Of a stretch of DNA of 64,000 nt, positions 8,189 through 39,835 are shown in pieces (the stretch's first letter is position 1; the number at the start of each line of letters is the position of its first letter). Below the pieces are notes generated by a model that was not told the DNA's origin, ran no database searches, and saw nothing but the letters and a program-made list of their open reading frames with translations. The position numbers and the translations under genes were made by a program. The DNA comes from Rhodovibrio salinarum DSM 9154 (GTDB taxonomy: Bacteria > Pseudomonadota > Alphaproteobacteria > Kiloniellales > Rhodovibrionaceae). The stretch lies in assembly GCF_000515255.1 (NCBI RefSeq), contig NZ_KI911559.1, positions 3,828,693-3,892,692 of the forward strand, read 5' to 3'.

Positions 8189-9970
<1,782 letters not shown>

Positions 9971-10640: not shown

Positions 10641-11066
10641 ATGTCAGACCAGTCACAGTATAACACCGACACAGGAACAGATATTCAGACGCAACCGGTG
10701 CAAACCGACAGCGCAGATCAGGTTCCGGCCGGCCAACAAAGCCCGTCCGCCACGAACAATACTTCGATGGTATACTGCAACACGTGCGGCAAAGACATGG
10801 CCCGGCTTGCGGAGAGCTGCCCAAGCTGCGGCGCCCCCAACCCGCTCGCTAAGCCTAAACAATCTGAAAAAAGTATGGTCCCTGCTGCCCTGCTTTGCTT
10901 CTTCTTCGGGGCTCTAGGTTTCCATCGTTTCTACGTTGGGAAAATCATTACAGGCATCCTGATGATCCTGACATTTGGGGGACTGGGGATTTGGGCCCTG
11001 ATCGACTTTGTCATGATCATTGTCGGTTCCTTCAAAGACAGCGAAGGGCTGCCGCTCAAGCGCTGA
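10641..11066 (+). CDS. Zinc-ribbon and TM2-domain membrane protein
   Basis: 141 residues. A disordered Thr/Gln-rich N-terminus is followed by a zinc ribbon (CNTCGKD and CPSCGAPN, residues 52-71). A TM2 domain with two membrane helices follows, and the motif GFHRFYVGK joins them (about residues 94-102). TM2 proteins are widespread and their function is unknown; the ribbon presumably faces the cytoplasm. It is followed by a second gene of the same architecture. Base composition is lower in GC than the neighbouring operons. Confidence 0.75.
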   Translation: MSDQSQYNTDTGTDIQTQPVQTDSADQVPAGQQSPSATNNTSMVYCNTCGKDMARLAESCPSCGAPNPLAKPKQSEKSMVPAALLCFFFGALGFHRFYVGKIITGILMILTFGGLGIWALIDFVMIIVGSFKDSEGLPLKR

Positions 11067-11157: not shown

Positions 11158-11553
11158 GTGTATTGTCAGGAATGCGGAAAGGAAATTTCCGCGCAGGCGA
11201 TCCAGTGTCCCGGTTGCGGATCGGAGGTACGGATCAACAGCCATATTGACCCCAATCCCAGCCCGAAAAATTACGGCGTCGCCGTCGCATTGAGCGGAAT
11301 CTTCGGGGTCGTCGGCATCCACCACTTCTATCTCGGCAATATCGCCCATGGCGTGCTGGATCTGACCATGCTGATCGGCGGGATCGCCTGTCTCGAGTTC
11401 GCCGATCCAGTGCATGGCAGTGATTTATTAGCGTTTGGCGGGCTTTTGCTGTTCGCCGATATCATTCACACGCTTGTGGTCACCTACCGGCTTATTGCGG
11501 GAAAGCAACGCGATGGTCAGGGCCGGCGCGTCCTGCCCCCACAGCACGCCTGA
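11158..11553 (+). CDS. Second zinc-ribbon and TM2-like protein
   Basis: 131 residues starting at GTG. The protein opens directly with a zinc ribbon (CQECGKEI then CPGCGSE, residues 3-21), then a TM2-like pair of hydrophobic helices with the linker GIHHFYLGN (residues 58-66). It differs in sequence from the preceding paralogue, so the pair is diverged rather than a recent duplication. The GTG start has only a weak ribosome site, so an alternative start cannot be excluded, but the ribbon would be lost with any later one. Confidence 0.7.
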   Translation: MYCQECGKEISAQAIQCPGCGSEVRINSHIDPNPSPKNYGVAVALSGIFGVVGIHHFYLGNIAHGVLDLTMLIGGIACLEFADPVHGSDLLAFGGLLLFADIIHTLVVTYRLIAGKQRDGQGRRVLPPQHA

Positions 11554-11785: not shown

Positions 11786-11953
11786 ATGTCGATGCACATG
11801 CAGCTCACCGATTTGGTGCTGATCCTCTCGGCCGTGGTGCCGATCGTGATCGTTTTCGTCCTGTCGGTGATCGTGGCACGGCGCACTTTCTCGATGCGCA
11901 ACGCCATGCGCGCACGTAAACGCGCGGCCGGCGACGAAAGCAAGCGGGCGTAG
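11786..11953 (+). CDS. Possible 55-residue single-pass membrane protein
   Basis: A short frame with a clean hydrophobic segment (residues 9-29, LVLILSAVVPIVIVFVLSV region) and a strongly basic C-terminal tail ending DESKRA, the layout of a small inner-membrane protein with a cytoplasmic tail. No strong ribosome site precedes the ATG, and two further ATGs follow at codons 3 and 5. No family is recognised. The rest of the 456-base gap between 11553 and 12010 shows no other feature. Confidence 0.4.
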   Translation: MSMHMQLTDLVLILSAVVPIVIVFVLSVIVARRTFSMRNAMRARKRAAGDESKRA

Positions 11954-12009
11954 CCCCAAGCTTCACGTCTGGCGCAAGCAGGTCGCAAGGCGTCCCTGCC
12001 CCGCGCATC

Positions 12010-13101
12010 TCATCCCGCGTCATCGATCCGCCGCACGAGCGCCACGCCCTTGATCAGGGCGAAGATCGGCTGCCCCGCCTGGATCTCGAGCAACCGTATC
12101 GAACGTCGGGTGACCCGGGCCCACAGCGCGGCGTTGCCGATCGCGACCCGCACGTCGACAAGGGGGCCCTCGTGCTCGGCGAGCGCGGTCACGGTGCCGG
12201 CGAGTACGTTCACAAAGCTGGTGTCGGTCGGCGGGGTGCGGGCCAGCGCGACGTCGCTGGCGCGCACGCGCAGACGCACCGTGCTCTCCGGGGGATGCGG
12301 CAGGTGCGGGACGAACAGCCGATGGCCGGAAACCGCGAGTTCACTCAGCGCATCGACGGCATGCTGCGCAACCACCCGCGCCGTGAGCAGCGTACAGGCG
12401 TCCGGTTCGCCCGTTAAGGCGCGCAAGTCGGGACGCGCGACGACCTCCTCGACCGGGCCGGCGGCAACCACCCCGCCCGCCTCGATCACGACCATGCTGT
12501 CGGCAAGCCGGACGATCTCGTCCAGCGCGTGCGAGACATAAACGATCGGCACACCGGCTTGGTCGCGCAAACGCTCGATGAACGGCAGGATGCGTTGCTT
12601 GCGCTCCTGGTCGAGCGCCGCCAGCGGCTCGTCCATCAGCAACAGCCGCGGCCCGGCGAGCAGCGCCCGCCCGAGCGCGACCCGCTGACGCTCGCCGCCG
12701 GACAGGTCGTGGGGCCTGCGTGCCAACAGGGGCTCGAGGTCGAGCAGGCCGACCACATGGTCCAGCTCTTCCGACCGAACGCCCGCGGGCGCGCGCCGGC
12801 GTCCGTAGAGCAGGTTGCCGCGCACGCTGTAGTGCGGGAATAACCGGGCATCCTGGAACACCTGTCCGATCCGGCGCTTGTGCGCCGGCATGTCGATCCC
12901 ACGCGTCGTATCGAACAGGGTTGTGCCCGAAACCGCGATCCGCCCGCGCGCCGGCCGGAGCAAGCCGGCGATGGCGTGGACGATGCTGCTCTTCCCCGCC
13001 CCCGAGCGACCGTACAGCGCGGTGACCCCCCGGTCGGGACAGGCAAACGCGGCGTCCAGATCAAACCCCGGAAACCGTTTCGCGACGGCAATATCCAGCA
13101 T
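12010..13101 (-). CDS. modC: Molybdate ABC transporter ATPase
   Basis: Cytoplasmic ATPase of the molybdate importer, 363 residues. Walker A is GRSGAGKSS (residues 31-39), the signature LSGGERQR, Walker B LLLMDEP, and the H-loop YVSHALDE. The C-terminal third is a molybdate-binding TOBE domain. An upstream GTG two codons earlier exists, but GGGAGG lies five bases before the ATG at 13101, so that start is preferred. It follows modB directly and is predicted to be transcribed from the sigma-54 promoter ahead of modB, which would couple molybdate import to nitrogen fixation. modA is not adjacent. Confidence 0.92.
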   Translation of the reverse strand: MLDIAVAKRFPGFDLDAAFACPDRGVTALYGRSGAGKSSIVHAIAGLLRPARGRIAVSGTTLFDTTRGIDMPAHKRRIGQVFQDARLFPHYSVRGNLLYGRRRAPAGVRSEELDHVVGLLDLEPLLARRPHDLSGGERQRVALGRALLAGPRLLLMDEPLAALDQERKQRILPFIERLRDQAGVPIVYVSHALDEIVRLADSMVVIEAGGVVAAGPVEEVVARPDLRALTGEPDACTLLTARVVAQHAVDALSELAVSGHRLFVPHLPHPPESTVRLRVRASDVALARTPPTDTSFVNVLAGTVTALAEHEGPLVDVRVAIGNAALWARVTRRSIRLLEIQAGQPIFALIKGVALVRRIDDAG

Positions 13102-13113
13102 GTTCACCTCCCG

Positions 13114-13806
13114 TCAGCCGGTCAGCCGGCGTCGAAGACGACGGGCCAGCAGTTCAGAAGCCGCGAGCGCCAACAGCGCCAGGCCAATCGACAGCACGAC
13201 CAACCGTACCGCACCGGCTTCCCCGCCCAACTGCTGCACCAGGCTGTAGATCGCCAGCGGCAGCGTCCGGGTCTCCCCCGGGATATTCGAAACGAAGGTG
13301 ATGGTGGCGCCGAACTCGCCCAGGCTGCGCGCGAAGCCCAGGATCGCGGCGACCAGCAATCCCGGCGCCGCAAGCGGCAGGGTGATCGTCAGGAAACGAT
13401 CCAGAGGGTTGGCGCCCAGGCCATGCGCCGCGGATTCCAGCCGACTGTCGATCGCCTCGAGCGACAGCCGGATCGCACGGACCATCAGCGGGAAAGCCAT
13501 CACCCCGGCGGCCACGGCGGCGCCCTGCCAAGTAAAGGCGAGCGTGAGGCCGACCACGTCGTTCAGCCAGCCGCCGAGGGGCCCGTTCCGGCCGAAAGCC
13601 AGGAGCAGCAGATACCCGACGACGACCGGCGGCAGCACCATCGGCAGATGCACCAAGCCTTCCAAAAGGGTCTTGCCGGGGAAGCGCCGCCGCGCCAGCA
13701 GCCAGGCGGTGGCAAGTGCAAGCGGAAGCGTCACGGTGACCGCCAGCAACGCGACGCGGATGCTGAGCAGCAGGGCCTCCCGTTCAAGCGGCGTGAGATC
13801 GGGCAT
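13114..13806 (-). CDS. modB: Molybdate ABC transporter permease
   Basis: Inner-membrane channel subunit for molybdate, 230 residues with five predicted helices. The ATPase-docking loop lies around HGLGANPLDRFLTITLPLA (residues 125-143), and the typical ModB segment SLGEFGATITF follows at about 161-171. It supplies molybdenum for FeMo-cofactor. It is divergent from nifE, with a 304-base intergenic region that holds sigma-54 elements on both strands and a NifA site. The periplasmic modA is not found upstream, where it usually lies. Confidence 0.92.
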   Translation of the reverse strand: MPDLTPLEREALLLSIRVALLAVTVTLPLALATAWLLARRRFPGKTLLEGLVHLPMVLPPVVVGYLLLLAFGRNGPLGGWLNDVVGLTLAFTWQGAAVAAGVMAFPLMVRAIRLSLEAIDSRLESAAHGLGANPLDRFLTITLPLAAPGLLVAAILGFARSLGEFGATITFVSNIPGETRTLPLAIYSLVQQLGGEAGAVRLVVLSIGLALLALAASELLARRLRRRLTG

Positions 13807-13864
13807 TCGCGAAGCCTCCCCAATCCGGCTGTGACCGCGACGGCACAGCTACCGAGGACGATCA

Positions 13865-13880
13865 AGCAATGCGCGTGCCA
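13865..13880 (-). promoter_or_regulatory. Sigma-54 promoter for modBC
   Basis: On the minus strand the sequence reads TGGCACGCGCATTGCT, a near-consensus -24/-12 element with GG and GC separated by exactly 10 bases. Transcription would start near 13853, about 47 bases before the modB ATG. Confidence 0.75.
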
Positions 13881-13934
13881 GCCCTTGTCGCGCCCACCCC
13901 CAGCCGCTCGGCGCGGGTCACGGACAGAGTGCCC

Positions 13935-13950
13935 TGTCAGGCAAGCGACA
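13935..13950. promoter_or_regulatory. NifA upstream activator site between modB and nifE
   Basis: A consensus TGT-N10-ACA site. It lies about 85 bases upstream of the -24 GG of the nifE promoter and about 55 bases from the -24 element of the modB promoter, so it could serve both. A second, imperfect copy (TGT-N10-ACG) lies at 13954-13969. Confidence 0.75.
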
Positions 13951-14034
13951 CTGTGTCGGATTCCCGACGTGGCGCGCGGCGCCCGCAGCGCGGTGACCAC
14001 GGCTCGGCCGCGCCCGGCGCGCTGCAATCGAAGC

Positions 14035-14050
14035 CGGCACGCTTCTTGCT
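14035..14050 (+). promoter_or_regulatory. Sigma-54 promoter for nifENXQ
   Basis: CGGCACGCTTCTTGCT, with GG at 14036-14037 and GC at 14048-14049 separated by 10 bases. The predicted start is near 14061, about 50 bases before nifE. Confidence 0.75.
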
Positions 14051-14110
14051 GCCAGTCGCTCAGCGGTTCAGGCGACCGCGCTGACACAAGTGTGAAGCCA
14101 GGAGGCTGGC

Positions 14111-15481
14111 ATGGCGGTGGAAACGGGTGTCCAGGATACGCCTGCGACGGCACGGCCGCGCGCGCCCCGGCCCGGCTGCGGCGCGCGGACCGCGAAGCCA
14201 ACGCCGGGCGCGGCCGCCGGCGGATGCGCCTTCGACGGCGCCAAGGTTGCCCTGCAGCCGATCGTCGATGCGGCGCACGTCGTGCACGGACCGATCGGCT
14301 GCGAGGGCAACAACTGGGACAACCGCCACGCGGCTTCCTCAGGCCCGGACCTGTATCGTCGGGGCCTGACCACCGACCTCGGCGAGTTGGACGTGATCGG
14401 CGGCGGCGAGGCGAAGCTCCGCGCGGCGATCAACCAAGCCATCACGCAATTCGACCCGCCAGCGGTGTTCGTCTACCAGACCTGTGTCTCCGCCCTGATC
14501 GGCGACGATATCCAGGCGATCTGCCACGCGGCAGCGGCGCGCCATGGCCGTCCGGTGATTCCGGTCGAGGCGGCTGGTTTCTCCGGCAGCAAGAACCAGG
14601 GCAACCGGATGGCGGGGCAGGCGCTGCTGGATCACGTGATTGGCACGCGCGAGCCTGCCTATACCACGGCGACCGACATCACGTTGATCGCCGAATACAA
14701 CATCGTCGGGGAATTGTGGCAGCTGACGCCGCTGTTCGAGCGGCTCGGCATTCGCCTCTTGTCCTGCATCACCGGCGACGCGCGTTTCCAGGAGGTGGCG
14801 CAGGCGCACCGCGCCCGCGCAGCGATGGTGATCTGCGCGCAGGCGATGGGTGGGGTCGGCCGGCAGCTTCAGGAGCGCTGGGGCGTCCCCTACTTCGAAG
14901 GTTCCTTCCACGGCTTGGCCGCGACCGCGAAGGCGCTGCGCAATCTGGCCAGGCTGCTAACCGACCGCGGGGCGCCGGCGGACCTGCCAGCACGAACCGA
15001 GGACCTGATCGCCGAGCAGGAGGCCGAGGTCGCCCGACGCTTCGCCCCGCTGCGCGACCGGCTCGCCGGGCGGCGGGTGCTGCTCTACACCGGCGGGCAC
15101 AAAAGCTGGGCGCTGGTGGCCGCGCTGAAGGAAATGGGCATGGAGGTGATCGGCACCTCCGTGCGCAAGGCGACCGAGAACGACAAGGCCCGCGCCCAGG
15201 ATCTGCTGGGCAGCGACGGGACGCTGTTCGGCGCGATCCCGCAGCCGGAGATGTACCGCATGCTGCGCGCGGGCGAAGCGGACATCCTGCTGTCCGGCGG
15301 GCGGACCCAGTTCGTCGCGCTCAAGGCCCGCAAACCCTGGCTCGACACCAACCAGGAACGCCATCACGGCTATGCCGGTTATGCCGGTTTCCTGACCCTG
15401 GCCGAGCAGATCGACCGAACGCTGCACGCCCCGGTTTGGGCACAGATCAACCGCCCCGCGCCCTGGGAGGTCGAGCCATGA
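14111..15481 (+). CDS. nifE: FeMo-cofactor assembly scaffold subunit NifE
   Basis: The alpha-type subunit of the NifEN scaffold, on which NifB-cofactor is matured to FeMo-cofactor. It has 456 residues and is homologous to NifD. Recognisable elements include the cofactor/cluster Cys segments (GCGARTAKPTPGAAAGGCAF region near residues 23-42, HGPIGCEGN near 59-67, and QTCVSALIGDDI near 118-129) and the C-terminal NifD-like fold. The ribosome site CAGGAGG precedes the ATG by 6 bases. It overlaps nifN by 4 bases (ATGA), consistent with stoichiometric synthesis. It heads the nifENXQ unit under a sigma-54/NifA promoter. Confidence 0.95.
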   Translation: MAVETGVQDTPATARPRAPRPGCGARTAKPTPGAAAGGCAFDGAKVALQPIVDAAHVVHGPIGCEGNNWDNRHAASSGPDLYRRGLTTDLGELDVIGGGEAKLRAAINQAITQFDPPAVFVYQTCVSALIGDDIQAICHAAAARHGRPVIPVEAAGFSGSKNQGNRMAGQALLDHVIGTREPAYTTATDITLIAEYNIVGELWQLTPLFERLGIRLLSCITGDARFQEVAQAHRARAAMVICAQAMGGVGRQLQERWGVPYFEGSFHGLAATAKALRNLARLLTDRGAPADLPARTEDLIAEQEAEVARRFAPLRDRLAGRRVLLYTGGHKSWALVAALKEMGMEVIGTSVRKATENDKARAQDLLGSDGTLFGAIPQPEMYRMLRAGEADILLSGGRTQFVALKARKPWLDTNQERHHGYAGYAGFLTLAEQIDRTLHAPVWAQINRPAPWEVEP

Positions 15482-18479: not shown

Positions 18480-19781
18480 TCAGCGCCAGGCCCGGCCCAG
18501 CTTCAGCATGTCGCCGACCAGTCCCCGCAACCGGCGCGTCTCGCGGAACGTGCCGGCGATCTCGCGTTCCTTCTGGCGCTTGGGCGTGCCGTCGACGCGG
18601 AACCAGGTATCGGCCGCGCGGGTCAGCAGCTTGGGATAGTCGGTGAAGAAGTGCTTATTGCCTTCCAACAGACGCGGCAAACGCCTGTATTTCTTCAGGT
18701 CCGACAGCACGAAGCTGTCTTCCAGGGCCTTGCGGTAGGCTTTGAGGGTCTTGGCTGTGAGCGGCTTGCCAGCGGCCTTGGCGGCAACGACCGTCTCGGC
18801 CGCCAGCCGACCCGAGGTCATCGCCATGTTCGACCCCTCGCGGTGGATCGAATTCACGAACTGCGCCGCGTCGCCGGCCACGACCCAACCGTCGCCATAG
18901 AGTTGCGGGATCGCGTCGTAATAACCTTCCGGGATCATGTGGGCGGCGTATTCGCGGATCTCAGCACCCGCCAGCAGCGGCGCGATCGCCGGGTGCTGCT
19001 TGAAGCGCTCCAGCAGGAAGTGCGGACGTACGCGACTTTCCGCGAAATCGCTGACCATGCAGCCGATCCCGACCGACAGGCTATCCTCGTTGGTGTAGAT
19101 GAACCCGGTGCCCGCCATCCCGGCGGTGATCGTGCCCGCCGCCTCGATCACCACCCCCTGCCCGTTCTTCAGGTTGAAGCGCTGGTTGATCGTGTCTTCG
19201 GACAGGAACATCGTTTCCTTGACCGCAAGCGCGACCTCGCTCGGCTTCAACTCCCGGCGCAGGCCGGCACGGCGCCCCAGCAGGGCGTTCACACCGTCCG
19301 CCAGGACGACGACATCGGCGGTGACCTCGCCGTCGGCCCGGTCAGTGGCAACACCGGTGACGCGGCCCTCGGCATCGCGCAGCAGATCGGTAACCGTCGT
19401 TTCGCAGATCACCAGCGCGCCGGCTTCGCGCACCTTGGAACTGAACCACTGGTCGAACTTGGCGCGGATGATGGTGTACCGGCTGGCCTTGGCCACATTG
19501 GCGTCGGGCGCACGATAATGCGTCCCGACATAGGCGTCGTCGTCCAGCATCCACAGCCGCTGCTCAAGCACCTGGCGCTCCAGCGGCGCCTCCTCCCGGA
19601 ATTCGGGGATCAGCTTCTCCAGCGGATCGGCGTAGAGGATCGCGCCCTGAACGTTCTTCGCGCCCGGGTACTCGCCGCGCTCGATCTGCAAGACGGACAG
19701 GCCGGCACGCGCCATCACCAGGGCGGCGCTGTTGCCGGCCGGGCCGGCGCCAACCACGATGGCGTCGAAGTGTTCGCTCAT
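18480..19781 (-). CDS. fixC: Electron-bifurcating flavoprotein FixC
   Basis: Homologue of ETF-quinone oxidoreductase, 433 residues, and the membrane-facing quinone-reducing subunit of the FixABCX complex. That complex uses NADH to reduce both quinone and a low-potential ferredoxin/flavodoxin for nitrogenase. The N-terminal FAD motif is [12 protein letters not shown] (residues 9-20), and a second FAD-contact segment ([15 protein letters not shown]) lies at about residue 290. The ferredoxin-like partner FixX is not next door; it is encoded behind nifK at 30344. Confidence 0.95.
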
Positions 19782-19797
19782 GGCGAGGCTCCTCCGG

Positions 19798-20940
19798 TCA
19801 AAGATGCGCGGCGTCCGGTACGGCGACGCGCGGGTCAGATTGCAGCTGACGGGCGAACGCCCGGGTCAGGGCCGGCAGCAGTTCCAGGCAGTTGCCGACC
19901 AGGCCGTAGTGGGCGAAATCGAAGATCGGCGCGGCTTCGTCGTTGTTGATGGCGAGGATCATGTCCGCCCCCTCGCAACCGACGCGGTGCTGCACCGCGC
20001 CGGAAATGCCGGCGGCAATGTAGAGGCGCGGGCGGATCGTCTTGCCGGTCTGGCCGATCTGGCGGTCGGCGGCCATCCAGCCCTTCTGGATCAGCGGACG
20101 CGAACAGCCGTAGTCGCCGCCCAGGGTCTGGGCGAGGTCGATCACGAGTTGGATATTGTCGGGGTGCTGCAGGCCGAGCCCGCCGGCCACGACGATGTCG
20201 GCGTAGGCGAGCTGCGCCTGCGCGGTGATGTCGTCGCGGACGAAATCGAGCACCTTGGTGATCACGTCCTGCTCGCTGAGATCGACGGCCTCCCGGATCA
20301 CCGGGCCGCTGCGGGCGCGGTCGGGAGCCGCCATCTTCATCACGCGCGGCCGGACGGTGGCCATCTGCGGGCGGGCGCTCAGCGTCTGGATCGTGCACAA
20401 CAGCGAGCCCCCGAAGGTCGGCCGCGTCGCCGCCAGCGCCCGCCCCTGGTCGATCGCGAGTTCCGTACAGTCCGCCGTCAGTCCGGTGCCCAGCCGGGTC
20501 GCCACCGCACCGGCCAGGTCACGGCCGAGCACCGTGGCGCCCAACAGCAGAATCTCCGGCGTGTACGCATCGATCAGGGCGCAGAGCGCCGAGGTGTAGG
20601 GCTCCGTTCGGTACTGGGCAAGCACGGGGTCGGTCGCCAGGCGCACCGTATCCGCGCCATAATGGAAGGCCTCAGCGGCCGTGGTTTCACTCGCGTGGTC
20701 GGCCGGGCCCAGCACCACGGCGGTCAGATCGGTGCCCAGGCTATCGGCGAGCTTGCGGCCTTCCGACAGCAGTTCCCAACTCACCGGATGGACGCGACCA
20801 TGCTCCTGTTCGACGAAGACCCAGACGCCTGCGTAGGCCTTGAGCACCTCCGGCAACTCCTGGCCGCGCCGAACCCCCTTGCCGGCGGCGTTGGCGGCGG
20901 CGGTGCGGCTGCCCGCGCGCTGATTCGTGACCTCGGTCAT
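19798..20940 (-). CDS. fixB: Electron transfer flavoprotein alpha-type subunit FixB
   Basis: The large ETF subunit of FixABCX, 380 residues. The C-terminal FAD-binding domain carries the ETF-alpha signature (around [16 protein letters not shown], residues 310-325, and the Asn-Asn-Asp motif after it). The N-terminal ~25 residues before [12 protein letters not shown] are an Arg/Ala-rich extension. AAGGAG lies 8 bases before the ATG. It lies 24 bases after fixA and 16 before fixC. With FixA it forms the bifurcating ETF core. Confidence 0.95.
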
Positions 20941-20964
20941 GGAGCATCTCCTTACGCTTGAGGC

Positions 20965-21825
20965 TCAAGCTTGCGGCTGGCGCGCGATCGTGCCCCACAG
21001 GTCCGGATCGGCGGCCAGCAGGGTGGACACGGCCGCATCGGCGCGGGCGTCCGCGGCGTCGCCATCGGCTTCGATGAACTGCGCCTTCTCCGAGCGCGGC
21101 TGCGGCGCGAACATCTTCACCACCTTGGTGGCGGAGCCACGCAGGCCGCAGGTCGCCGTGTCCTCGATTCCCACGGCGGCAGCGTTCCAGGTCGGGATCT
21201 CCGTACGCGCCGCACGCAGCACGTCGGGCAGCGCGCCGCGGCGCAGGGTGAAATGACCATCCAGCACCGTGACCAGGCACGGCAGGCGGGTGGCCAGCAC
21301 CTGCAAGCCCCCCTCCGCCCGGCGGTGAGCCGTGAGCGTCCCGGCGGCCAGATCGATCTCCGGAATCTCGGCGACATAGGTCAATTGATTGAGGCCCAGG
21401 CGCTGCGCGATGCCCGGCCCGACCTGGGCGGTATCGCCGTCGATCGTCTGCTTGCCGGTGAGCACGAGATCGACCGGCCGCTCGCGGCCGATCCGACGGA
21501 TCGCGGCGGTCAGGGTGTAGGAGGTCGCCAACGTGTCCGAGCCGGCGAAGAAACGGTCGCTCATCAGCACCGCCGCATCCGCCCCGTGCCCCAGCGCCTT
21601 GCGCAGGGACTCCGCAGCCATCGGCGGGCCCATGGTCAGCACCGTGACCGTGCCGCCGACCCGATCGCGCAGCGACAGGCCGGCTTCCAGCGCTTCCAGG
21701 TCGTAGGGATTGATGATGCTGGGCACGCCCTGGCGCATGATCGTATTGGTCTTCGGATCGACGCCGATCTGTGCGCTATCGGGCACCTGCTTGATGCAGA
21801 CGACGATGTTGAGGCCGTCGGTCAT
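20965..21825 (-). CDS. fixA: Electron transfer flavoprotein beta-type subunit FixA
   Basis: The small ETF subunit, 286 residues, with the family opening NIVVCIKQVPDSAQIGVDP (residues 5-23) and the ETF-beta signature around LPCLVTVLDG. It binds NADH-side flavin in the FixABCX complex. It starts 3 bases after nifW, so the fix genes are embedded in a nif operon and should be co-induced with iscA and nifV from the sigma-54 promoter at 23759-23774. Confidence 0.95.
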   Translation of the reverse strand: MTDGLNIVVCIKQVPDSAQIGVDPKTNTIMRQGVPSIINPYDLEALEAGLSLRDRVGGTVTVLTMGPPMAAESLRKALGHGADAAVLMSDRFFAGSDTLATSYTLTAAIRRIGRERPVDLVLTGKQTIDGDTAQVGPGIAQRLGLNQLTYVAEIPEIDLAAGTLTAHRRAEGGLQVLATRLPCLVTVLDGHFTLRRGALPDVLRAARTEIPTWNAAAVGIEDTATCGLRGSATKVVKMFAPQPRSEKAQFIEADGDAADARADAAVSTLLAADPDLWGTIARQPQA

Positions 21826-21828
21826 GGC

Positions 21829-22146
21829 TCAATCTCCACGGGTCGGATCGCTAATGGCATCGAGCGGGACGAAGGTGCGCCCGGCGCCGTCCGTGTCCTG
21901 GCGAAACACGGCGAAGACGCGCTCCCGCTGCGGGGTCGAGAGCTGGAAATCACGATGTGCCGCAGCCAGGCAGACTTGCATCGTGGCTCTGTCTGGCGCG
22001 TTATGGGCGGCCAGATAATCGTGGAATCGCTGCAGCACGTGCAGCCGACTCACCCGCAAGACCTTGGGGTCATAGGGGACCTGCAGCGCGTCGAAGAAAT
22101 CCTCCGCCGTGGTCAGGCCGGCCAACTGGTCGTGCACGCTGGTCAT
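21829..22146 (-). CDS. nifW: Nitrogenase stabilising protein NifW
   Basis: 105 residues matching NifW across its length (SAEDFF-like segment TTAEDFFDALQVPYDP, residues 12-27, and the LSTPQRERVF region). NifW interacts with MoFe protein and helps protect it from oxygen or helps its assembly. The start overlaps the nifV stop by 4 bases (ATGA). It sits between nifV and fixA in one transcription unit. Confidence 0.9.
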   Translation of the reverse strand: MTSVHDQLAGLTTAEDFFDALQVPYDPKVLRVSRLHVLQRFHDYLAAHNAPDRATMQVCLAAAHRDFQLSTPQRERVFAVFRQDTDGAGRTFVPLDAISDPTRGD

Positions 22147-23357
22147 CGCACCGGATCCTTCGCCAGAGACCGGTCGGCCGTGGCCGGCGCGAGTGCGACG
22201 GGACCGCCTGTGGTTAGGGCGTGCCAGCGACGCAACTCCTCGCCCCCCGGCGCCTGCTTGCTATAGCGGTAATGCGCCCGCAGCAGCGCCAGGATGCGCT
22301 GCGCCTGTCCCGGTTCGAGCGGCAGGCCGAGTTCGGTACAGGCATGCACCACGCCGGCGGTCCCGGAATGCTTGCCGAGCACCAGCGTGTGCTGCCGGCC
22401 AAGACGTGCCGGATCGAGCCCGGTATAGGTGGCGGGATCGCGCAGCAGGCCGTGAACGTGGGTGCCGCTTTCATGGCTGAACACATGCTTGCCGACCACC
22501 GCCTTGTCCGGCGGGACCGCCCGGTTGGCGGTGCCGGCGACCAGGTCGGCGATACCGGTCAGGCAGGTCAGATCGATCCCGGTGGGGTGGCCGAAGGTGG
22601 TCGCCAGGGCGACCGCGACCTCTTCCAGGGCGGCGTTGCCGGCGCGCTCGCCCAGGCCGAGTACGGTGACACTGGCGTAGTCCGCCCCGCCGGCGATCGC
22701 CGCCAGGGTATTGGCGGTCGCCAGTCCCAGATCGTCGTGGGCATGGATTTCCAGACCGATATCGCTATGCCCACGCAACCAACCGAACAGCTCGCGGGTC
22801 CGGAACGGCTCCAGGACGCCCAGGGTATCGGCGACACGGAACCGGATGGCGCCGGCGCCCTGAGCCGCCTCCAGCACCCGAGCGAGGAACGCGGGGTCGG
22901 CGCGGGAGGCATCCTCGCCGCCGACGCTGACGAGCATCCCCAGATCGCAGGCGCGCCGCACGAAGTCGGGCAGAGTCGCCAAGACCCAGTCGCGGGTCGC
23001 CCCCAGCTTCGCCTTTAATTGCCGGTCCGACACCGGGACCGAGATGTGAACGCGGTCCACGCCGGTCGCCTGCGCGCTGTCGAGATCTTCCCGGCGAAGC
23101 CGGCACCAGGCGACGCACGGCGCGGTCAGGCCGAGTTCGCAAAGCGCCCGGATGTCGTCGACCTGATCCGCGCCCATCACCGGGATGCCCGCCTCGATCT
23201 CCGCCACGCCGGCCCGATCGAGGGCACTGGCGATCGCCAGCTTGTCGGTGCGCGTGAAGGACACGCCGACGGCCTGCTCGCCGTCGCGCAACGTGGTATC
23301 CGCGAGCAGCACCGGCTCCGGAATGGCCGTCGCGCTCGGATGGACGGCGGAGCGCAT
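22143..23357 (-). CDS. nifV: Homocitrate synthase NifV
   Basis: Condenses acetyl-CoA with 2-oxoglutarate to homocitrate, the organic ligand of FeMo-cofactor. 404 residues; an HMGL-like TIM barrel with the DTTLRDGEQ metal/substrate motif at about residues 16-24 and the HAHDDLGLATAN metal-binding motif (about 195-206). The start at 23357 has GGGAGG five bases upstream; the longer frame upstream overlaps iscA and lacks a site. It lies 14 bases after the IscA gene. Distinguished from isopropylmalate synthase by context and its short length. Confidence 0.94.
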   Translation of the reverse strand: MRSAVHPSATAIPEPVLLADTTLRDGEQAVGVSFTRTDKLAIASALDRAGVAEIEAGIPVMGADQVDDIRALCELGLTAPCVAWCRLRREDLDSAQATGVDRVHISVPVSDRQLKAKLGATRDWVLATLPDFVRRACDLGMLVSVGGEDASRADPAFLARVLEAAQGAGAIRFRVADTLGVLEPFRTRELFGWLRGHSDIGLEIHAHDDLGLATANTLAAIAGGADYASVTVLGLGERAGNAALEEVAVALATTFGHPTGIDLTCLTGIADLVAGTANRAVPPDKAVVGKHVFSHESGTHVHGLLRDPATYTGLDPARLGRQHTLVLGKHSGTAGVVHACTELGLPLEPGQAQRILALLRAHYRYSKQAPGGEELRRWHALTTGGPVALAPATADRSLAKDPVR

Positions 23358-23371
23358 CGCAACCTCCCCCC

Positions 23372-23689
23372 TCATTGGGCTGGTGCCGCACAGCTGCACA
23401 GGCCGGCAGCGTTCGGGTTGTCGAAAACGAAGCCCGCCCCGCGCGCATCCTGAACGAAGTCGATCATGGCCCCCCGAAGGAGGCCGGCGCTGTCCGGGTC
23501 GAGGTAGATCTCCAGCGCGCCGAAGGTTGCGACGGTATCCTCCGCCTCGGGCCCGATATCGAGACCGAGCCGGTATTGCATGCCAATGCAGCCGCCGGTC
23601 CGGGCGACGATGCGCAGGCCCCGCGCGCGCTGCGATTTCGCGACGAACGCTTCAAGCGTCTCCCGTGCGGCGTCGGTCAGGGTGAGCAT
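23372..23689 (-). CDS. Nif-associated IscA/HesB-type Fe-S carrier
   Basis: A-type iron-sulfur carrier of 105 residues with the three conserved cysteines (GGCIG at about residues 35-39 and CSC at about 99-101). The start at 23689 has GGAG eight bases upstream. First gene of the leftward unit, divergent from nifB. No nifU or nifS is present in the window, so this carrier probably delivers clusters to NifB, NifH or FixX using a general ISC/SUF assembly system elsewhere; that is an inference. Confidence 0.9.
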   Translation of the reverse strand: MLTLTDAARETLEAFVAKSQRARGLRIVARTGGCIGMQYRLGLDIGPEAEDTVATFGALEIYLDPDSAGLLRGAMIDFVQDARGAGFVFDNPNAAGLCSCAAPAQ

Positions 23690-23758: not shown

Positions 23759-23774
23759 AGCAAGCGGCGTGCCA
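23759..23774 (-). promoter_or_regulatory. Sigma-54 promoter for the iscA-nifVW-fixABC unit
   Basis: The minus strand reads TGGCACGCCGCTTGCT, a near-consensus -24/-12 with 10 bases between GG and GC. The predicted start is near 23748, about 60 bases before the iscA ATG. Confidence 0.8.
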
Positions 23775-23839: not shown

Positions 23840-23886
23840 TGTCAGGATTGCGACATACGCCCCGCCGCTGTGTCGGGGGTGCGACA
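23840..23886. promoter_or_regulatory. Pair of NifA sites between iscA and nifB
   Basis: Two exact TGT-N10-ACA sites at 23840-23855 and 23871-23886, 31 bases apart (about three helical turns, so on the same DNA face). They lie 45-90 bases upstream of the nifB -24 element and 66-112 bases upstream of the iscA one, and so can activate both directions. Confidence 0.85.
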
Positions 23887-23929: not shown

Positions 23930-23945
23930 TGGCATCGGCTTTGCT
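23930..23945 (+). promoter_or_regulatory. Sigma-54 promoter for nifB-fdxN-nifZ
   Basis: TGGCATCGGCTTTGCT with GG at 23931-23932 and GC at 23943-23944. The predicted start is near 23956, about 23 bases before the nifB ATG. Confidence 0.85.
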
Positions 23946-26128: not shown

Positions 26129-26176
26129 TGTTGGCCTCCCGACACAGTCAGGGACGCCTTTGTCACGTTTCGAACA
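26129..26176. promoter_or_regulatory. Pair of NifA sites upstream of nifH
   Basis: Two exact TGT-N10-ACA sites at 26129-26144 and 26161-26176, 32 bases apart and about 80-127 bases upstream of the -24 element, the classical distance for NifA activation through a DNA loop. Confidence 0.88.
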
Positions 26177-26245: not shown

Positions 26246-27220
<975 letters not shown>

Positions 27221-30701: not shown

Positions 30702-30742
30702 AGCGCACACATGCCAAACGTGTTGGTGCGCAGGTCCTTAAT

Positions 30743-30758
30743 GGGTGCTTACGTTGCA
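30743..30758 (+). promoter_or_regulatory. Possible sigma-54 promoter of nifA
   Basis: GGGTGCTTACGTTGCA has GG and GC separated by 10 bases and a perfect TTGCA -12 half, but the -24 half is GGTGC rather than GGCAC. The start would fall near 30769, about 20 bases before the nifA ATG. I see no TGT-N10-ACA site nearby, so this is weaker than the other nif promoters. Confidence 0.4.
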
Positions 30759-30788
30759 ATGCAGCGGCCCATCGTTGGAGGAGGGGCC

Positions 30789-32489
30789 ATGCTTTCCAAA
30801 ACGCATGACACGGTTGCCGCGAGTCTCCCGCCGGCGACGCCGACGGCTTCAGGCGCCCGCCGGCTCAGTGCCTTGTACGAGGTCAGCAAGATCCTGTCGG
30901 GCGCGCAGGACCTCAACACCACCCTGCGTGAGGTGCTGACCGTCGTCGCCGCCTACGTCGAACTGCGCCGGGTGACGGTCGCGCTCCGCGACCGAAGCGG
31001 CAAGGTCTATGTCGCCGGTTCGACCGACCCGAGCCTGGAGGCCGGCCGAACGGCCGCCAACGCGTATCCGCTCGAAGCCGCCCAGGACGTGCTGCGCGCG
31101 AACATGCCAGCGATCATGGCCGTGACCCGCGACGACCCACGGTGCGCGCGCTATTGCGAACACATCGCCGGCGGCGAAGAGCACCGGGTCACGTTCATCT
31201 GCGTGCCGGTCCGGCTGGCGGGAGGGCCGATCGGAACCCTGTCGGCGGAACGCGTGAACGACGGCGGCGTAGCCCCCTTCGACGACGATCTTAGTTTCCT
31301 GCGGATGATCGGCAACCTGGTCGCGCAGGCGTTGCGGCTCCATGGGTTTCCCGGCACCCAGACAGCAGGCGATCGTCGCGCCCAGCTTGCCGAGCGCCCG
31401 GAGGCCGCGCGTCCCACAAGATCCCGAAACCGAACGCCCCAGCCAGGAGAATTTGGCGAAATTGTTGGCGAAAGCCCGGCCATGACCGGCGTCTTGGAGC
31501 AGGTCCGTCACGTCGCCCGCACCCGCGCGCCGGTGATGCTGCGCGGGGAAAGCGGCACCGGCAAGGAGATGATCGCGCAGTTGATCCACCGGTTCAGCCC
31601 GCGCCGGGACAAGCCGATGATCTGCGTCAATTGCGCGGCGCTGCCGGAAAACCTGCTGGAATCGGAGTTGTTCGGGCACGACAAGGGTGCCTTCACCGGC
31701 GCCAACAGCGAACGCAAGGGCCGCTTCGAGGCGGCCCATGGCGGCACGCTGTTTCTGGACGAGATCGGGGATATCCCACACACCTTCCAGACGAAACTCC
31801 TGCGCGTGCTGCAGGAAGGCCAGTTCGAGCGGCTCGGCTCGTCACGCACGCGTTCGGTCGACGTGCGGATCATCGCCGCGACCAACCGCAACCTGGAACA
31901 GGCGGTCGTCGACGGTGACTTCCGCGCCGACCTGTATTACCGGATCAACGTGGTCTCGATCATCATCCCGCCGTTACGCCAGCGGGTCGAGGACATCGCG
32001 CCCCTGGCCGAGCACTTCCTCGCACGCTTCAACCAGGAAAACGGCGACGATCTCGGCTTTGCGCAAGAAGCCCTGGACACGCTGGAGCGCTGCCCCTTTC
32101 CAGGCAACGTCCGCGAACTGGAGAACTGCATCACCCGGGTAGCCACGATGGCCCGGGGCGAGCGCATCCAGGCCTGGGATTTCCCGTGCGGTACTAACGG
32201 ATGCCTGGCCTCGGCCCTATGGCCCGACAGCGCAGCGCACCCGCACGGGGGCGAAACGCCAGCGATCCCATCTCACCCCGCACCGCCTGCGGTGCGCGAG
32301 GCGGGCGACACCTCAGGGTCGGAATCGGCGGACAGTTCGGGCGGCCGGCTGATCGAGCGCACACGGCTGGTCACGGCGATGGAAAAGGCCGGCTGGGTAC
32401 AGGCCAAGGCGGCCCGATTGCTCGGCATGACACCGCGCCAGGTCCGCTACGCGCTGCACAAGCATGGGATCGAAGTCAAACGGTTATAG
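30789..32489 (+). CDS. nifA: Nif-specific transcription activator NifA
   Basis: Sigma-54-dependent activator of the nif genes, 566 residues. An N-terminal GAF domain (about 20-185) is followed by a linker and an AAA+ domain with GESGTGKE (Walker A) and the sigma-54-contacting GAFTGA loop at residues 300-305. Last comes a C-terminal helix-turn-helix (AAGWVQAKAARLLGMTPRQVRYAL-type segment, about 535-557). Cys435-x11-Cys447-x19-Cys467-x4-Cys472 at the end of the AAA+ domain and in the linker is the signature of oxygen-sensitive NifA. The start at 30789 is chosen for GGAGGAGGGG just upstream; an earlier ATG at 30711 lies before the candidate promoter. Confidence 0.95.
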   Translation: MLSKTHDTVAASLPPATPTASGARRLSALYEVSKILSGAQDLNTTLREVLTVVAAYVELRRVTVALRDRSGKVYVAGSTDPSLEAGRTAANAYPLEAAQDVLRANMPAIMAVTRDDPRCARYCEHIAGGEEHRVTFICVPVRLAGGPIGTLSAERVNDGGVAPFDDDLSFLRMIGNLVAQALRLHGFPGTQTAGDRRAQLAERPEAARPTRSRNRTPQPGEFGEIVGESPAMTGVLEQVRHVARTRAPVMLRGESGTGKEMIAQLIHRFSPRRDKPMICVNCAALPENLLESELFGHDKGAFTGANSERKGRFEAAHGGTLFLDEIGDIPHTFQTKLLRVLQEGQFERLGSSRTRSVDVRIIAATNRNLEQAVVDGDFRADLYYRINVVSIIIPPLRQRVEDIAPLAEHFLARFNQENGDDLGFAQEALDTLERCPFPGNVRELENCITRVATMARGERIQAWDFPCGTNGCLASALWPDSAAHPHGGETPAIPSHPAPPAVREAGDTSGSESADSSGGRLIERTRLVTAMEKAGWVQAKAARLLGMTPRQVRYALHKHGIEVKRL

Positions 32490-36141: not shown

Positions 36142-37716
36142 ATGAATAACGCGTACAGCCTAAAGCGCGTGGCGCTTGGCGGCAGTTGCGCTTTGGCGAT
36201 AGCGCTCAGCGCCGGCACGGCCGCCGCGCAGGAGGTGGATCCGAACGCGACCTGGGTGCTCGGCACAACCGACCAGCCGACCACCTACGACCCGGCGGGC
36301 GCCTACGACCTGCCGTCCTGGAACATCATGTGGAACGTCTACAGCTTCCTCATGCGGATTCCGCCTGGTGAGACGACGCCGGTGCTGGACGCCGCCAAAT
36401 CCTGTGAATGGTCGGCGGAAACCAAGTACAAGTGCGTGCTGAAGGAGGGGATCACCTTCACCAACGGGCAGGAGTTGACGGCCGAGGACGTCAAGTTCTC
36501 CTTCGAGCGCATGATCGAGATGGACAAGCCGGCCGGCCCCTCCAGCCTGTTCTCGCCGATCCAGTCGATCTCCACGCCCGACGAGTACACGGTCGTCTTC
36601 GATCTGAAGCAGCACAACGCGACCTGGCCGTACGTGCTCACCACCGGCGCGGGCGCGATCGTACCCAAGGGCGTCTATCCGGCGGACGAGCTGCAGCCGA
36701 GCGACGAGATCGTTGGCTCCGGCCACTATAAGCTCGCTGCCTACAAGCCGAACGTCCAGACGGTGCTGGAAGAGAACGAGGACTATTACGGCGACCCCGC
36801 CCGGAACCAGCGGGTGATCATCCAGTATTTCTCGAACTCCTCCTCGCTGAAGCTGGCGATCCAGCAAGGCAACGTCGACGTCGCCTACCGCAAGCTGACG
36901 CCGACCGACGTGCAATCGCTGCGCGAGATGGCCAAAGACCAGCCATTCCGCCTGGTCGAGGGTAAGGGCACCGCGATCCGCTACCTGGTGTTCAACCTCG
37001 ACCTGGAGCCCGGCCAGCAGCAAGCCGTGCGTCAGGCCGCGGCCTACCTGATGGACCGTGAGGCGGTTGCCCAGAACGTCTATAACGGCACGGTCGAGCC
37101 GCTTTATTCCATGATCCCGGCCGGCCTGAAGGGCCATACGGACGCCTTCAAGTCGATCTACGGCGTGGGCACCAACGCCGAGAAGGCGAAGCAGGTGCTG
37201 AGCGAGGCCGGGATCGAGACACCGGTCGAGCTGCAGCTCTGGTACACGCCGACCCACTACGGCGACAGCTCGGCGGACGAGTACGCCGAGATCCAGCGGG
37301 CGTTCGAGACCGACGACATCTTCGATGTCACGCTGAAGTCCACTGAGTGGGCGCGCTACGTCGAGGCGGCGACGACTGACCAGTACCCGGCCTTCCAGAT
37401 GGGCTGGTTCCCGGACTTCCCGGACGCGGACAACTACACCGCGCCCTTCTACGGTTCCGAAACCTCGTGGCTGAACACCCACTACGAGAACGCACGGGTC
37501 GACGAGCTGATCGGCAAGCAGCGCGCGGCGGAAGATTCCGAAGCACGCGTCGAGGCGTTCGAGGAGATTCAGCAGATCGCCGCGGAGGAGGTCCCGATCA
37601 TCCCGGTCTTCCAGGCCAAGCAGATCGCGACGGTCGGCGATCAGATGACCGGTGTGTCGGATACGCTCGATGCCTCCTACATCTTCCGCTACTGGCTGGT
37701 CGGAAAGACGCAGTAG
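36142..37716 (+). CDS. Dipeptide-type ABC transporter binding protein
   Basis: Periplasmic family-5 solute-binding protein, 524 residues. It has a signal peptide (basic start MNNAYSLKR, hydrophobic core about 11-24, cleavage near AAAQE at 26-30). The SBP_bac_5 core includes the GITFTNGQELTAEDVKFSFER segment in two parts (about 107-127). The substrate is probably peptides, but nickel chelates, opines or glutathione-type ligands use the same family. First gene of a five-gene importer operon; a hairpin follows it, which usually gives excess binding protein over membrane parts. Confidence 0.88.
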   Translation: MNNAYSLKRVALGGSCALAIALSAGTAAAQEVDPNATWVLGTTDQPTTYDPAGAYDLPSWNIMWNVYSFLMRIPPGETTPVLDAAKSCEWSAETKYKCVLKEGITFTNGQELTAEDVKFSFERMIEMDKPAGPSSLFSPIQSISTPDEYTVVFDLKQHNATWPYVLTTGAGAIVPKGVYPADELQPSDEIVGSGHYKLAAYKPNVQTVLEENEDYYGDPARNQRVIIQYFSNSSSLKLAIQQGNVDVAYRKLTPTDVQSLREMAKDQPFRLVEGKGTAIRYLVFNLDLEPGQQQAVRQAAAYLMDREAVAQNVYNGTVEPLYSMIPAGLKGHTDAFKSIYGVGTNAEKAKQVLSEAGIETPVELQLWYTPTHYGDSSADEYAEIQRAFETDDIFDVTLKSTEWARYVEAATTDQYPAFQMGWFPDFPDADNYTAPFYGSETSWLNTHYENARVDELIGKQRAAEDSEARVEAFEEIQQIAAEEVPIIPVFQAKQIATVGDQMTGVSDTLDASYIFRYWLVGKTQ

Positions 37717-37731
37717 CTAACATTTGACTAT

Positions 37732-37761
37732 GGGCCCCCGACGCGCTAAGCGCCGGGGGCC
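37732..37761 (+). terminator. Attenuating hairpin after the binding-protein gene
   Basis: Stem GGCCCCCG (37733-37740) with CGGGGGCC (37754-37761), with additional GCGC pairing inside the loop, followed by GTTGCCTTTT. It is likely to stabilise the upstream mRNA or reduce read-through into the permease genes. Confidence 0.65.
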
Positions 37762-37808
37762 GTTGCCTTTTCGGCCCTTGTGTTCCTTCCAGATTCGGTT
37801 GTCCGACC

Positions 37809-38837
37809 ATGGCCTCGCAGACAACATCGCTGCGCGCCTATGCGCTTACCCGCCTCGTGTTGGCGGTACCAATGATCTTGGTGCTTCTGTCGTTCGTCTT
37901 CCTGCTGATGCGCGTGGCGCCCGGTGACCCGGTCGCGGCCGCGCTGGGCGGCAAGGTCAGCGACGAGGTGCTGCAACGCAAACGCGAGGCGATGGGCCTC
38001 GACGACCCGGTGTACGTCCAGTTTGCGGACTACATCGCCGATGTCTTCAGTTTCGACTTCGGCATGACGATCACCGACAGCCGGCCGGTGCTGGAGGTGA
38101 TCCTGAACAACGGCGCGGCGACCCTGGAGCTGGTCTTCTTCGGCATGGTGATCGCGACCACGCTCGGCATTCTGCTGGGCCTGATCACCGGGCGCCTGCG
38201 CGACACGCCGATCGACGTCACCGGCCGGTTGTTCGGCATCTTCATCTACGCCACGCCGGTCTTCTTCCTCGGCTTTCTGGGCCAGCTGATCTTCGGCGCC
38301 GAACTGAACTGGCTGCCGGCCAGCGGCCGCGCGAGCCCGATCGTGCAGTACACCCTGGAACGCACCACCAACCTTCTGGTGCTGGACGCGATCATCGCCG
38401 GCAACTGGAGCGCGCTGTGGGACGTGATCCGTCACTTGATCATGCCGGCGATGACGCTGGGCTTGCTGATCACCGGCGTGCTGCTGCGCATGGTCCGCGT
38501 CAATCTGCTGCAGACGCTGCAGGGCGACTACGTCGAAGCCGCGCGCGCTCGCGGGGTGCGTGAATGGCGGGTGGTGTTCCGCCACGCCTTCCGCAACGCG
38601 CTGGTGCCCGTGGTGACCATGATCGGCCTGCAGTTCGCGCTCCTGATGTCGGGCGCGATCCTGACCGAAACGACCTTTAACTGGCCCGGACTGGGCAACC
38701 AGCTGGTCCGCTACCTGAACAACCGTGATTACACCGGGGTCCAGGGGATCATCACCTTCTTCGCCTTGGTGGTGGTGCTGATCTCGGTGGTGATCGACTT
38801 CGTCAACGCCTGGATCGACCCGCGGGTGAGGTACTGA
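37809..38837 (+). CDS. Dipeptide-type ABC permease, DppB family
   Basis: 342 residues, six predicted membrane helices; the first is residues 13-33. The long periplasmic loop after helix 1 and the EAA-type docking loop (YVEAARARGVREWRVVFRHAFRNAL in two parts, about 239-263) identify the DppB/OppB family. It shares one base with the next gene (TGATG), so translation is coupled. Confidence 0.9.
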   Translation: MASQTTSLRAYALTRLVLAVPMILVLLSFVFLLMRVAPGDPVAAALGGKVSDEVLQRKREAMGLDDPVYVQFADYIADVFSFDFGMTITDSRPVLEVILNNGAATLELVFFGMVIATTLGILLGLITGRLRDTPIDVTGRLFGIFIYATPVFFLGFLGQLIFGAELNWLPASGRASPIVQYTLERTTNLLVLDAIIAGNWSALWDVIRHLIMPAMTLGLLITGVLLRMVRVNLLQTLQGDYVEAARARGVREWRVVFRHAFRNALVPVVTMIGLQFALLMSGAILTETTFNWPGLGNQLVRYLNNRDYTGVQGIITFFALVVVLISVVIDFVNAWIDPRVRY

Positions 38838-39835
38838 TGAGCGCACGCGACGACAGCCAGGCCCCCCGGCGTCCCGGCCTGCTCGCCCGGCAATTCCGCC
38901 GCGTTTCCGGGCCGATCAAGGAAAGCCGCGGCCTGCCCCGCGTGGTGCTGTGGATCGGCACGGCGATCACCGGTTTCTGGATCCTGGTCGCGCTCTTCGC
39001 GCCCTGGATCGCGCCTTACGGCTACTCCCAATATCAGAACGACGCCGGCGAGCGGTTCGGCAAGCACATCGCCCCCAACATGGACTACCTGCTGGGCACC
39101 ACCGTGCAGTCGACCGACGTGCTGTCGCGGATCGTCTGGGGCGCGCGCACCGAGGTCGAGGTGGTGATCCTGGCGGTGGTCTTCTCGCTTGCGATCGGGC
39201 TGCCGATCGGCCTGATCTCAGGCTTCAAGGGCGGCTGGCTGGACCGTGTCCTGGTGTTGATCATGGATGCGCTGTTCGCCTTCCCCTACCTGCTGCTGGC
39301 CATCGTGATCGCCTTCCTGCTATCGGACGTGCTGGCAAGCGGCGTTCTGACGGCGGCAATCGCCATTTCCGTCGTCTACGTGCCGCAGTACTTCCGCGTG
39401 GTCCGCAACCATACGATCTCCGTGCGCGAGGAGCCGTTCGTCGAGGCCGCGCGGGCGATGGGCGCGCGGCCGCGCTGGATCGTGACCAAGTACGTGCTGG
39501 CGAACGTCGTGCAGTCGGTCCCCGTCGTCGCCACCCTGAACGCGGCGGACTCCATCCTCACCCTCGCCGGCCTGGGCTTCCTCGGCTACGGCATTCAGCC
39601 GACCCAAGGGGCCGAGTGGGGCTATGACCTGCAGCGGGCGATCGCGGATGCGGGTGCGGGCATCTGGTGGACCGGCTTGTTCCCCGGCATCGCGATCGTC
39701 TCGCTCGTGACCGGCCTGACGCTCCTGGGCGAGGGGCTGAACGATGTGCTCAACCCGCTGCTGCGCCCGCGCCGGACCGAGCCGGTCAAGTTCCCCGACA
39801 AGGACAGCGAGGCCCCGGAAGGAGAGCGGACATGA
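38837..39835 (+). CDS. Dipeptide-type ABC permease, DppC family
   Basis: 332 residues. An N-terminal cytoplasmic segment and first helix (about 36-55) are followed by five more helices; the docking loop EEPFVEAARAMGARPRWIVTKYVL (about 197-220) is typical of DppC/OppC. It overlaps the following ATPase gene by 4 bases (ATGA). It forms the channel with the DppB-type subunit. Confidence 0.9.
   Translation: MSARDDSQAPRRPGLLARQFRRVSGPIKESRGLPRVVLWIGTAITGFWILVALFAPWIAPYGYSQYQNDAGERFGKHIAPNMDYLLGTTVQSTDVLSRIVWGARTEVEVVILAVVFSLAIGLPIGLISGFKGGWLDRVLVLIMDALFAFPYLLLAIVIAFLLSDVLASGVLTAAIAISVVYVPQYFRVVRNHTISVREEPFVEAARAMGARPRWIVTKYVLANVVQSVPVVATLNAADSILTLAGLGFLGYGIQPTQGAEWGYDLQRAIADAGAGIWWTGLFPGIAIVSLVTGLTLLGEGLNDVLNPLLRPRRTEPVKFPDKDSEAPEGERT

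Follow-up and report, generated by a model that had tools for sequence, protein, structure and literature searches.

A modA-less modBC pair divergent from nifE in Rhodovibrio salinarum is a predicted NifA/sigma-54 target that may share the ModA of a distant modABC operon

The modBC/nifE locus and its control region

The window, meaning the whole stretch of DNA that was analysed, comprises 64,000 nt of the genome of Rhodovibrio salinarum DSM 9154 (C1:3828693-3892692), which is a single contig of 4,176,524 bases. On its minus strand lie modB (13114..13806, -), encoding a permease of 230 aa, and modC (12010..13107, -), encoding an ATPase of 365 aa. The modB stop and the modC start are 6 bp apart, and the latter is a GTG at 13107 with an alternative ATG two codons inside. 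Across an intergenic gap of 304 bp, nifE (14111..15481, +) runs divergently from modB and scored 561 bits against TIGR01283 (cut-off 505). Two of the features that define a ModABC importer are present in the pair. ModB belongs to the molybdate equivalogs (NF006939, 334 bits, cut-off 262; TIGR02141, 229 bits, cut-off 182.6), with the molybdate/tungstate permease 2onk_C as its best solved relative. ModC carries the C-terminal TOBE domain (PF03459) behind ABC_tran (PF00005) in Pfam, and scored 424 bits against TIGR02142 (cut-off 285) while staying below the stricter NF008355 (379 against 434). The third feature, a ModA in the same operon, is absent beside modB according to a whole-genome TIGR01256 search, as the sequence-only reading had noticed. 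Between modC and a solute-binding gene farther off (8189-9970, general SBP_bac_1 in Pfam) sit two neighbouring small membrane proteins (10641-11066 and 11158-11553, both +) with N-termini that look zinc-ribbon-like by eye; the first of them matches Pfam TM2.

The sequence-only reading had placed near-consensus -24/-12 elements on both strands of the gap around a TGT-N10-ACA site, and all three are indeed found there. The predicted sigma-54 element of modB, TGGCACGCGCATTGC (13866..13880, -), has no mismatch to TGGCAC-N5-TTGC, and that of nifE, CGGCACGCTTCTTGC (14035..14049, +), has one. Between the two promoters and common to both genes lies the putative NifA-type upstream activator site TGTCAGGCAAGCGACA (13935..13950), 54 bp from the modB promoter. 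When the nominal start was taken 11 nt past the -12 GC, modB would start at about 13855 with a leader of about 49 nt, a plausible distance from its start codon, and nifE would have a leader of 51 nt; GGGGAGG precedes the modB ATG. The centre of the activator site would then lie about 88 bp upstream of the modB start and about 118 bp upstream of the nifE start. TGT-N10-ACA usually stands roughly 80-150 bp from the start, which puts modB at the near end of the range. A distance of at least 100 bp is given as usual for NifA sites in the accessible text on Pseudomonas stutzeri (PMC2820453).

Other signals were looked for in the same region. Neither a sigma-70-like promoter nor a terminator was detected in 11900-14200, although for the former the absence is weak evidence, with only 0.1 expected by chance. 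The best match to a Mo-box in the gap has 10 mismatches, which gives no sign of membership in a ModE/Mo-box regulon, and the 64-kb window as a whole has no Mo-box with up to 5 mismatches. No IHF-like site in the gap comes closer than 3 mismatches, and two benchmark nif regions were no better in this respect. The closest match to an NtrC-type site there has 6 mismatches.

Chance expectations and benchmark nif promoters

Individually, the motifs occur about as often as chance predicts. In the window, the promoter motif with up to 1 mismatch occurs 9 times against 4.59 expected, a number reached in 6 of 100 shuffles. TGT-N10-ACA, a short motif that is common singly, also occurs 9 times where 5.50 were expected, and 7 of 100 shuffles had at least as many. 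Genome-wide, the bare perfect promoter was found 16 times against 9 in the control. The combination of promoter and activator site at modB/nifE, by contrast, is far above chance. With TGT-N10-ACA required 30-150 bp upstream, the window holds three perfect promoters and five with up to 1 mismatch, whereas 60 window shuffles gave means of 0.017 and 0.10 respectively. When the 304-bp gap itself was shuffled, any pair with up to 1 mismatch appeared in 1 of 5000 shuffles and the perfect modB pair in 0 of 5000. In the 4.18-Mb genome, a perfect promoter with TGT-N10-ACA at a gap of 40-100 bp is present in three places, namely at modB, at the operon upstream of nifV and at nifH; the reversed-pattern control for the perfect pair returned 0.

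Two nif regions of the window served as benchmarks. The first lies before nifB and has the same divergent layout as modB/nifE. A perfect sigma-54 element (23760..23774, -) faces nifV and, as the first frame behind it, one that looks HesB/IscA-like by eye; an element with 1 mismatch (23930..23944, +) faces nifB; and the two TGT-N10-ACA sites common to both (23840-23855 and 23871-23886) lie between them. The second is the perfect element of nifHDK (26255..26269, +) with TGT-N10-ACA at 26129-26144 and 26161-26176. Behind the promoter at 23760-23774, a fixC-like gene, two electron-transfer-flavoprotein-like genes, a nifW-like gene and nifV stand in a row (18480-23399, -). Shortly past the nif cluster, 36142-39835 encodes an SBP_bac_5 (family-5) binding protein and two Opp/Nik-type permeases whose best matches are named nickel permease but fall below cut-off, possibly a nickel or peptide importer.

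The regulator and the sigma factor that such promoters call for are both encoded in the genome. The product of nifA (30711..32489, +) scored 616 bits against TIGR01817 (cut-off 529) and has GAF, sigma-54 activator AAA+ and Fis-type HTH domains in Pfam, and rpoN is present in one copy. Since modB and two nif operons are the only places in the genome with the composite site, and nifA and rpoN are present, modBC looks like a NifA-type target, so that the sequence-only proposal of NifA/sigma-54 control is supported at the level of sequence. The modB-facing site might instead be real but driven by another activator, such as NtrC, or it might be a by-product of the nifE control region. Below its cut-off, the NifA model has six more matches, of which five cover the central AAA+; these are probably other sigma-54 activators that could play this part. 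Nevertheless, the poor NtrC-type match in the gap, the NifA-type site at 54 bp and the layout shared with the region before nifB all speak for NifA, and a perfect modB-facing site is unlikely to arise as a by-product given its absence from the 5000 gap shuffles. We regard both versions of this alternative as highly improbable.

The separate modABC operon and the two modBC copies

The missing modA beside modB was followed through the whole genome. A search for modA and for a second modABC copy, as the sequence-only reading had suggested, found a complete modABC operon about 1.7 Mb from the window modBC (about C1:2142285-2144897; L162:2286-4898 in the extracted locus), with modA as its first gene. 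That modA (C1:2144148-2144798) is the only TIGR01256 match over cut-off in the genome (197 bits against 62.5) and is just under the stricter NF007958 (250.7 against a cut-off of 253). A second candidate at C1:1740921 was rejected, with 28.7 bits against the same cut-off of 62.5 and the appearance, by eye, of another binding-protein type. Only two modC matches exceed the TIGR02142 cut-off, one in each copy, among 121 matches.

Regulatory signals differ between the copies. Upstream of the modA of modABC lies CGCTATATATGACGGAATATAGCC, which has 2 mismatches to the Mo-box palindrome. Among 29 relatives, 28 from the same order and one from the same class, a Mo-box with up to 4 mismatches stands upstream of modA in 10, where three of the ten sites are near-identical, and is absent at this level from the other 19; in 600 mononucleotide shuffles a motif of this quality appeared 0 times. 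A gene for a ModE-like HTH protein lies near modABC (C1:2146170-2146418; L162:6105-6467, -), scoring 91.5 bits, under the cut-off of 98.5. The regulator has 120 aa, and Pfam at E 1e-5 recognised the HTH alone and no molybdate-binding domain. Because of the Mo-box and the ModE-like gene nearby, modABC is probably repressed by molybdate, and this control is itself a prediction. In the 9.5 kb around modABC we found neither TGT-N10-ACA nor a sigma-54 site with at most 1 mismatch. The two modBC copies therefore appear to answer to different signals, as the Mo-box is found only at modABC and the sigma-54/TGT-N10-ACA combination only at the nif copy. The earlier suggestion that molybdate import is tied to nitrogen fixation is thus supported by sequence for the nif-linked modBC, but its implication that this replaces the usual control by ModE and molybdate does not, as the modABC preceded by a Mo-box persists. 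The nif-linked pair is an extra translocator. An ordinary modABC, which appears to be Mo-controlled, exists beside it, and no sole importer has been rewired.

The sequence-only reading had left two possibilities, that the importer borrows a ModA encoded elsewhere or that it works differently. The former is favoured because a single modA exceeds the cut-off genome-wide and belongs to a full modABC, and the nif-linked modBC most likely borrows that ModA. A version of the latter would pair the nif-linked ModBC with a solute-binding protein other than ModA, perhaps to carry another oxyanion. No modA adjoins the pair, and the 121 ModC-model matches, two over cut-off, reflect the many ABC systems from which a partner could come. 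Nevertheless, ModB scores over the cut-offs of two molybdate equivalogs and ModC over that of one, while sulfate, phosphonate and tungstate models stayed under their cut-offs among the best 25 matches listed for each. The nearby binding-protein gene is of the general SBP_bac_1 type, and the weak modA-like match looks by eye like another type of binding protein. The permease surface points the same way. Among ModB columns conserved at 95% or more in 27 relatives with modB beside modA (two of the 29, which in the tree set were without a full adjacent modC, were left out), the nif ModB retains all 28 that fall within the predicted periplasmic loops and 73 of the 79 outside them; the ModB of modABC retains 28 of 28 and 78 of 79. 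The contrast between loops and the rest in the nif ModB does not reach significance (Fisher p 0.34), and the loop limits come from our own topology estimate. Docking to the same ModA would be consistent with these data but is not proved by them. We consider a different partner or substrate quite unlikely.

The two copies are 75% identical in ModB and 57% in ModC, with pairwise dN/dS of 0.17 and 0.39, respectively. In a quick tree of 68 rows they stand apart, whereas a careful tree of 36 rows joins them with weak support (86/37), and AU tests favoured a tree with the copies together by 25 log units and one with the order together by 19 (p-AU 0.84 and 0.88). A recent tandem-type duplication is not shown, given only 57% identity in ModC against 75% in ModB and the disagreement of the trees. 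Duplication within the host lineage, of whatever age, is likely, with horizontal arrival together with the nif cluster as the alternative.

These divergences could also mean that the nif-linked modBC is a duplicate heading to loss, inconsequential whether or not it is transcribed from nif signals. Its branch is longer (0.62 against 0.35), 43% of ModC residues differ between the copies at the higher dN/dS, and six otherwise conserved ModB columns are broken (16, 56, 128, 129, 137 and 153), three of them in the presumed ATPase-coupling region. It has no modA beside it, and a precedent exists in Rhodobacter capsulatus, where, according to the accessible text of PMC6925177, a second Mod-type (ModABC-like) transporter, MorABC, needs NifA; its deletion left Mo-nitrogenase activity unaffected, and the authors infer a negligible contribution under the tested conditions. 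NifA-controlled copies may therefore matter little. On the other hand, both R. salinarum frames are intact, full length and over family cut-offs, dN/dS is below 1, and a perfect promoter element has been kept. Overall, we find decay unlikely.

We consider it probable that the nif-linked modBC is an extra NifA/sigma-54-controlled translocator that docks with the ModA of the distant modABC; from the genome we infer NifA binding, transcription, ModA sharing and a physiological role alike. A second copy of the membrane and ATPase parts of the importer would have been put under NifA/sigma-54 control. Active NifA would bind 13935-13950 and drive RpoN-dependent transcription both ways, toward nifE, whose product is the FeMo-cofactor scaffold, on the right and modBC on the left. 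The ModBC translocator made in this way would dock with ModA from the operon about 1.7 Mb away, and the outcome would be extra molybdate translocation capacity during the making of FeMo-cofactor, while the Mo-regulated operon would provide the capture protein. A diazotroph may thus link the uptake of a metal to cofactor assembly by duplicating the translocator alone and leaving capture to a common ModA. Whether two ModBC pairs share one ModA could be tested here by simple genetics. For annotators, the lack of modA at a nif locus is no sure sign that the importer is broken or unusual.

Known systems and distribution in other genomes

NifA control of molybdate import is already known, and what the R. 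salinarum locus adds, the missing modA and the control region common with nifE, is a modest variant. The closest precedents were compared as far as their accessible texts go. The R. capsulatus Mor system is likewise a ModABC-like transporter in the NifA regulon, but it has its own binding protein MorA and is Mo-repressed by MopA/MopB, whereas the R. salinarum modBC has neither a modA beside it nor a Mo-box; the Mor genes also lie apart from nitrogen fixation clusters A-D, whereas modBC shares its control region with nifE (PMC6925177, including its table). In P. stutzeri A1501, PST1345-1348 are mod genes that lie within the nif island and follow a predicted NifA/sigma-54 promoter, as in R. salinarum, and differ in that modA is present; 11 predicted operons are described as nifA- and rpoN-dependent there, with data not shown (PMC2820453). 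Induction of modE and modA1B1C1 under nitrogen fixation is reported for Azoarcus BH72 (PMC8467165, PMC3916325), mod genes near nif clusters in variable order for Bacteroidetes (PMC4356463), and an induced modABC beside nif, together with extra modA genes, for a methanogen (PMC9765008), each in the accessible part of the source. The accessible part of a molybdenum-use survey (PMC6147048) has nothing on a modA-less modBC. Our literature search, which covered few subscription papers, brought up no recognisable description of a modA-less, NifA-type modBC.

Relatives seldom share the arrangement. A search at E 1e-50 detected ModB in 46 of 78 genomes, our own among them, and two matches occur in our own genome only; the two other members of its family have no ModB match at this threshold. 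The nif-linked copy was found in no close relative among these 78. Loci were retrieved for 29 of the 45 ModB matches in other genomes, and modA stands beside modB in all 29. In 80 contig loci, the best 80 of at least 579 relatives, 6 are without modA in the stretch examined, so that a modA-less modBC is uncommon but not unique. At these best 80 loci, tblastn with seven window nif proteins (E 1e-8, flanks up to 10 kb) detected no nif genes. Plasmid records gave 24 ModB matches at the threshold used.

We then considered the genomes that carry nifE, which was found in 13 of the 385 genomes searched in the class and in 41 of the 398 searched in the phylum, our own included. ModB is present in 42 of the 47 other nifE-bearing genomes (9 of 12 in the class at E 1e-40, 33 of 35 in the phylum at E 1e-30) and lies within 30 kb of nifE in at least 10 of them, a lower bound as many assemblies are fragmented. 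The presence of modA was judged by a profile built from those matches to the R. salinarum modA at E 1e-20 that lay in the loci examined, so that its absence means none by this profile in the stretch. The profile was positive in 26 of 30 ModB loci from the phylum's nifE-bearing genomes (E 1e-30 search) and negative in six distant loci. Eight of the 10 nif-linked loci have modA next to modB. None was found in the other two (G445 and G537), which belong to the same phylum as R. salinarum and whose ModB is over the TIGR02141 cut-off and under NF006939. G537 has nifE-N-X-modB-modC-nifV on one strand (L196) with no modA in the stretch and modABC elsewhere (L182); G445 has nifE-N-X..nifV..modBC (L195), again with no modA in the stretch examined. 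Both differ from R. salinarum in that modB is on the same strand as nifE with no promoter/activator pair immediately upstream, and their ModB is 36-37% identical to it. The alphaproteobacterial G384 resembles R. salinarum in that its nif-linked mod genes, which come after nifB, follow a NifA-type promoter on their own strand (L159) and in that there is a second modABC (L163), but modA is present in its nif-linked operon.

The recurrence of orphan modBC in the nif clusters of R. salinarum, G445 and G537 could hint at a recurrent design, an idea we advance tentatively and with more doubt than conviction. The translocator would be made on NifA's order and ModA under molybdate control, molybdate flux to FeMo-cofactor would need both a nitrogen-starvation and a molybdate-scarcity signal, and two ModBC pairs would compete for one ModA.

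One further alphaproteobacterial genome (G102) has two nifE over cut-off, on contigs C106 and C115. On another of its contigs (C97, locus L149), a NifX-like match of 31% identity lies beside modABC, so modABC may be linked to nif more often than our count indicates.
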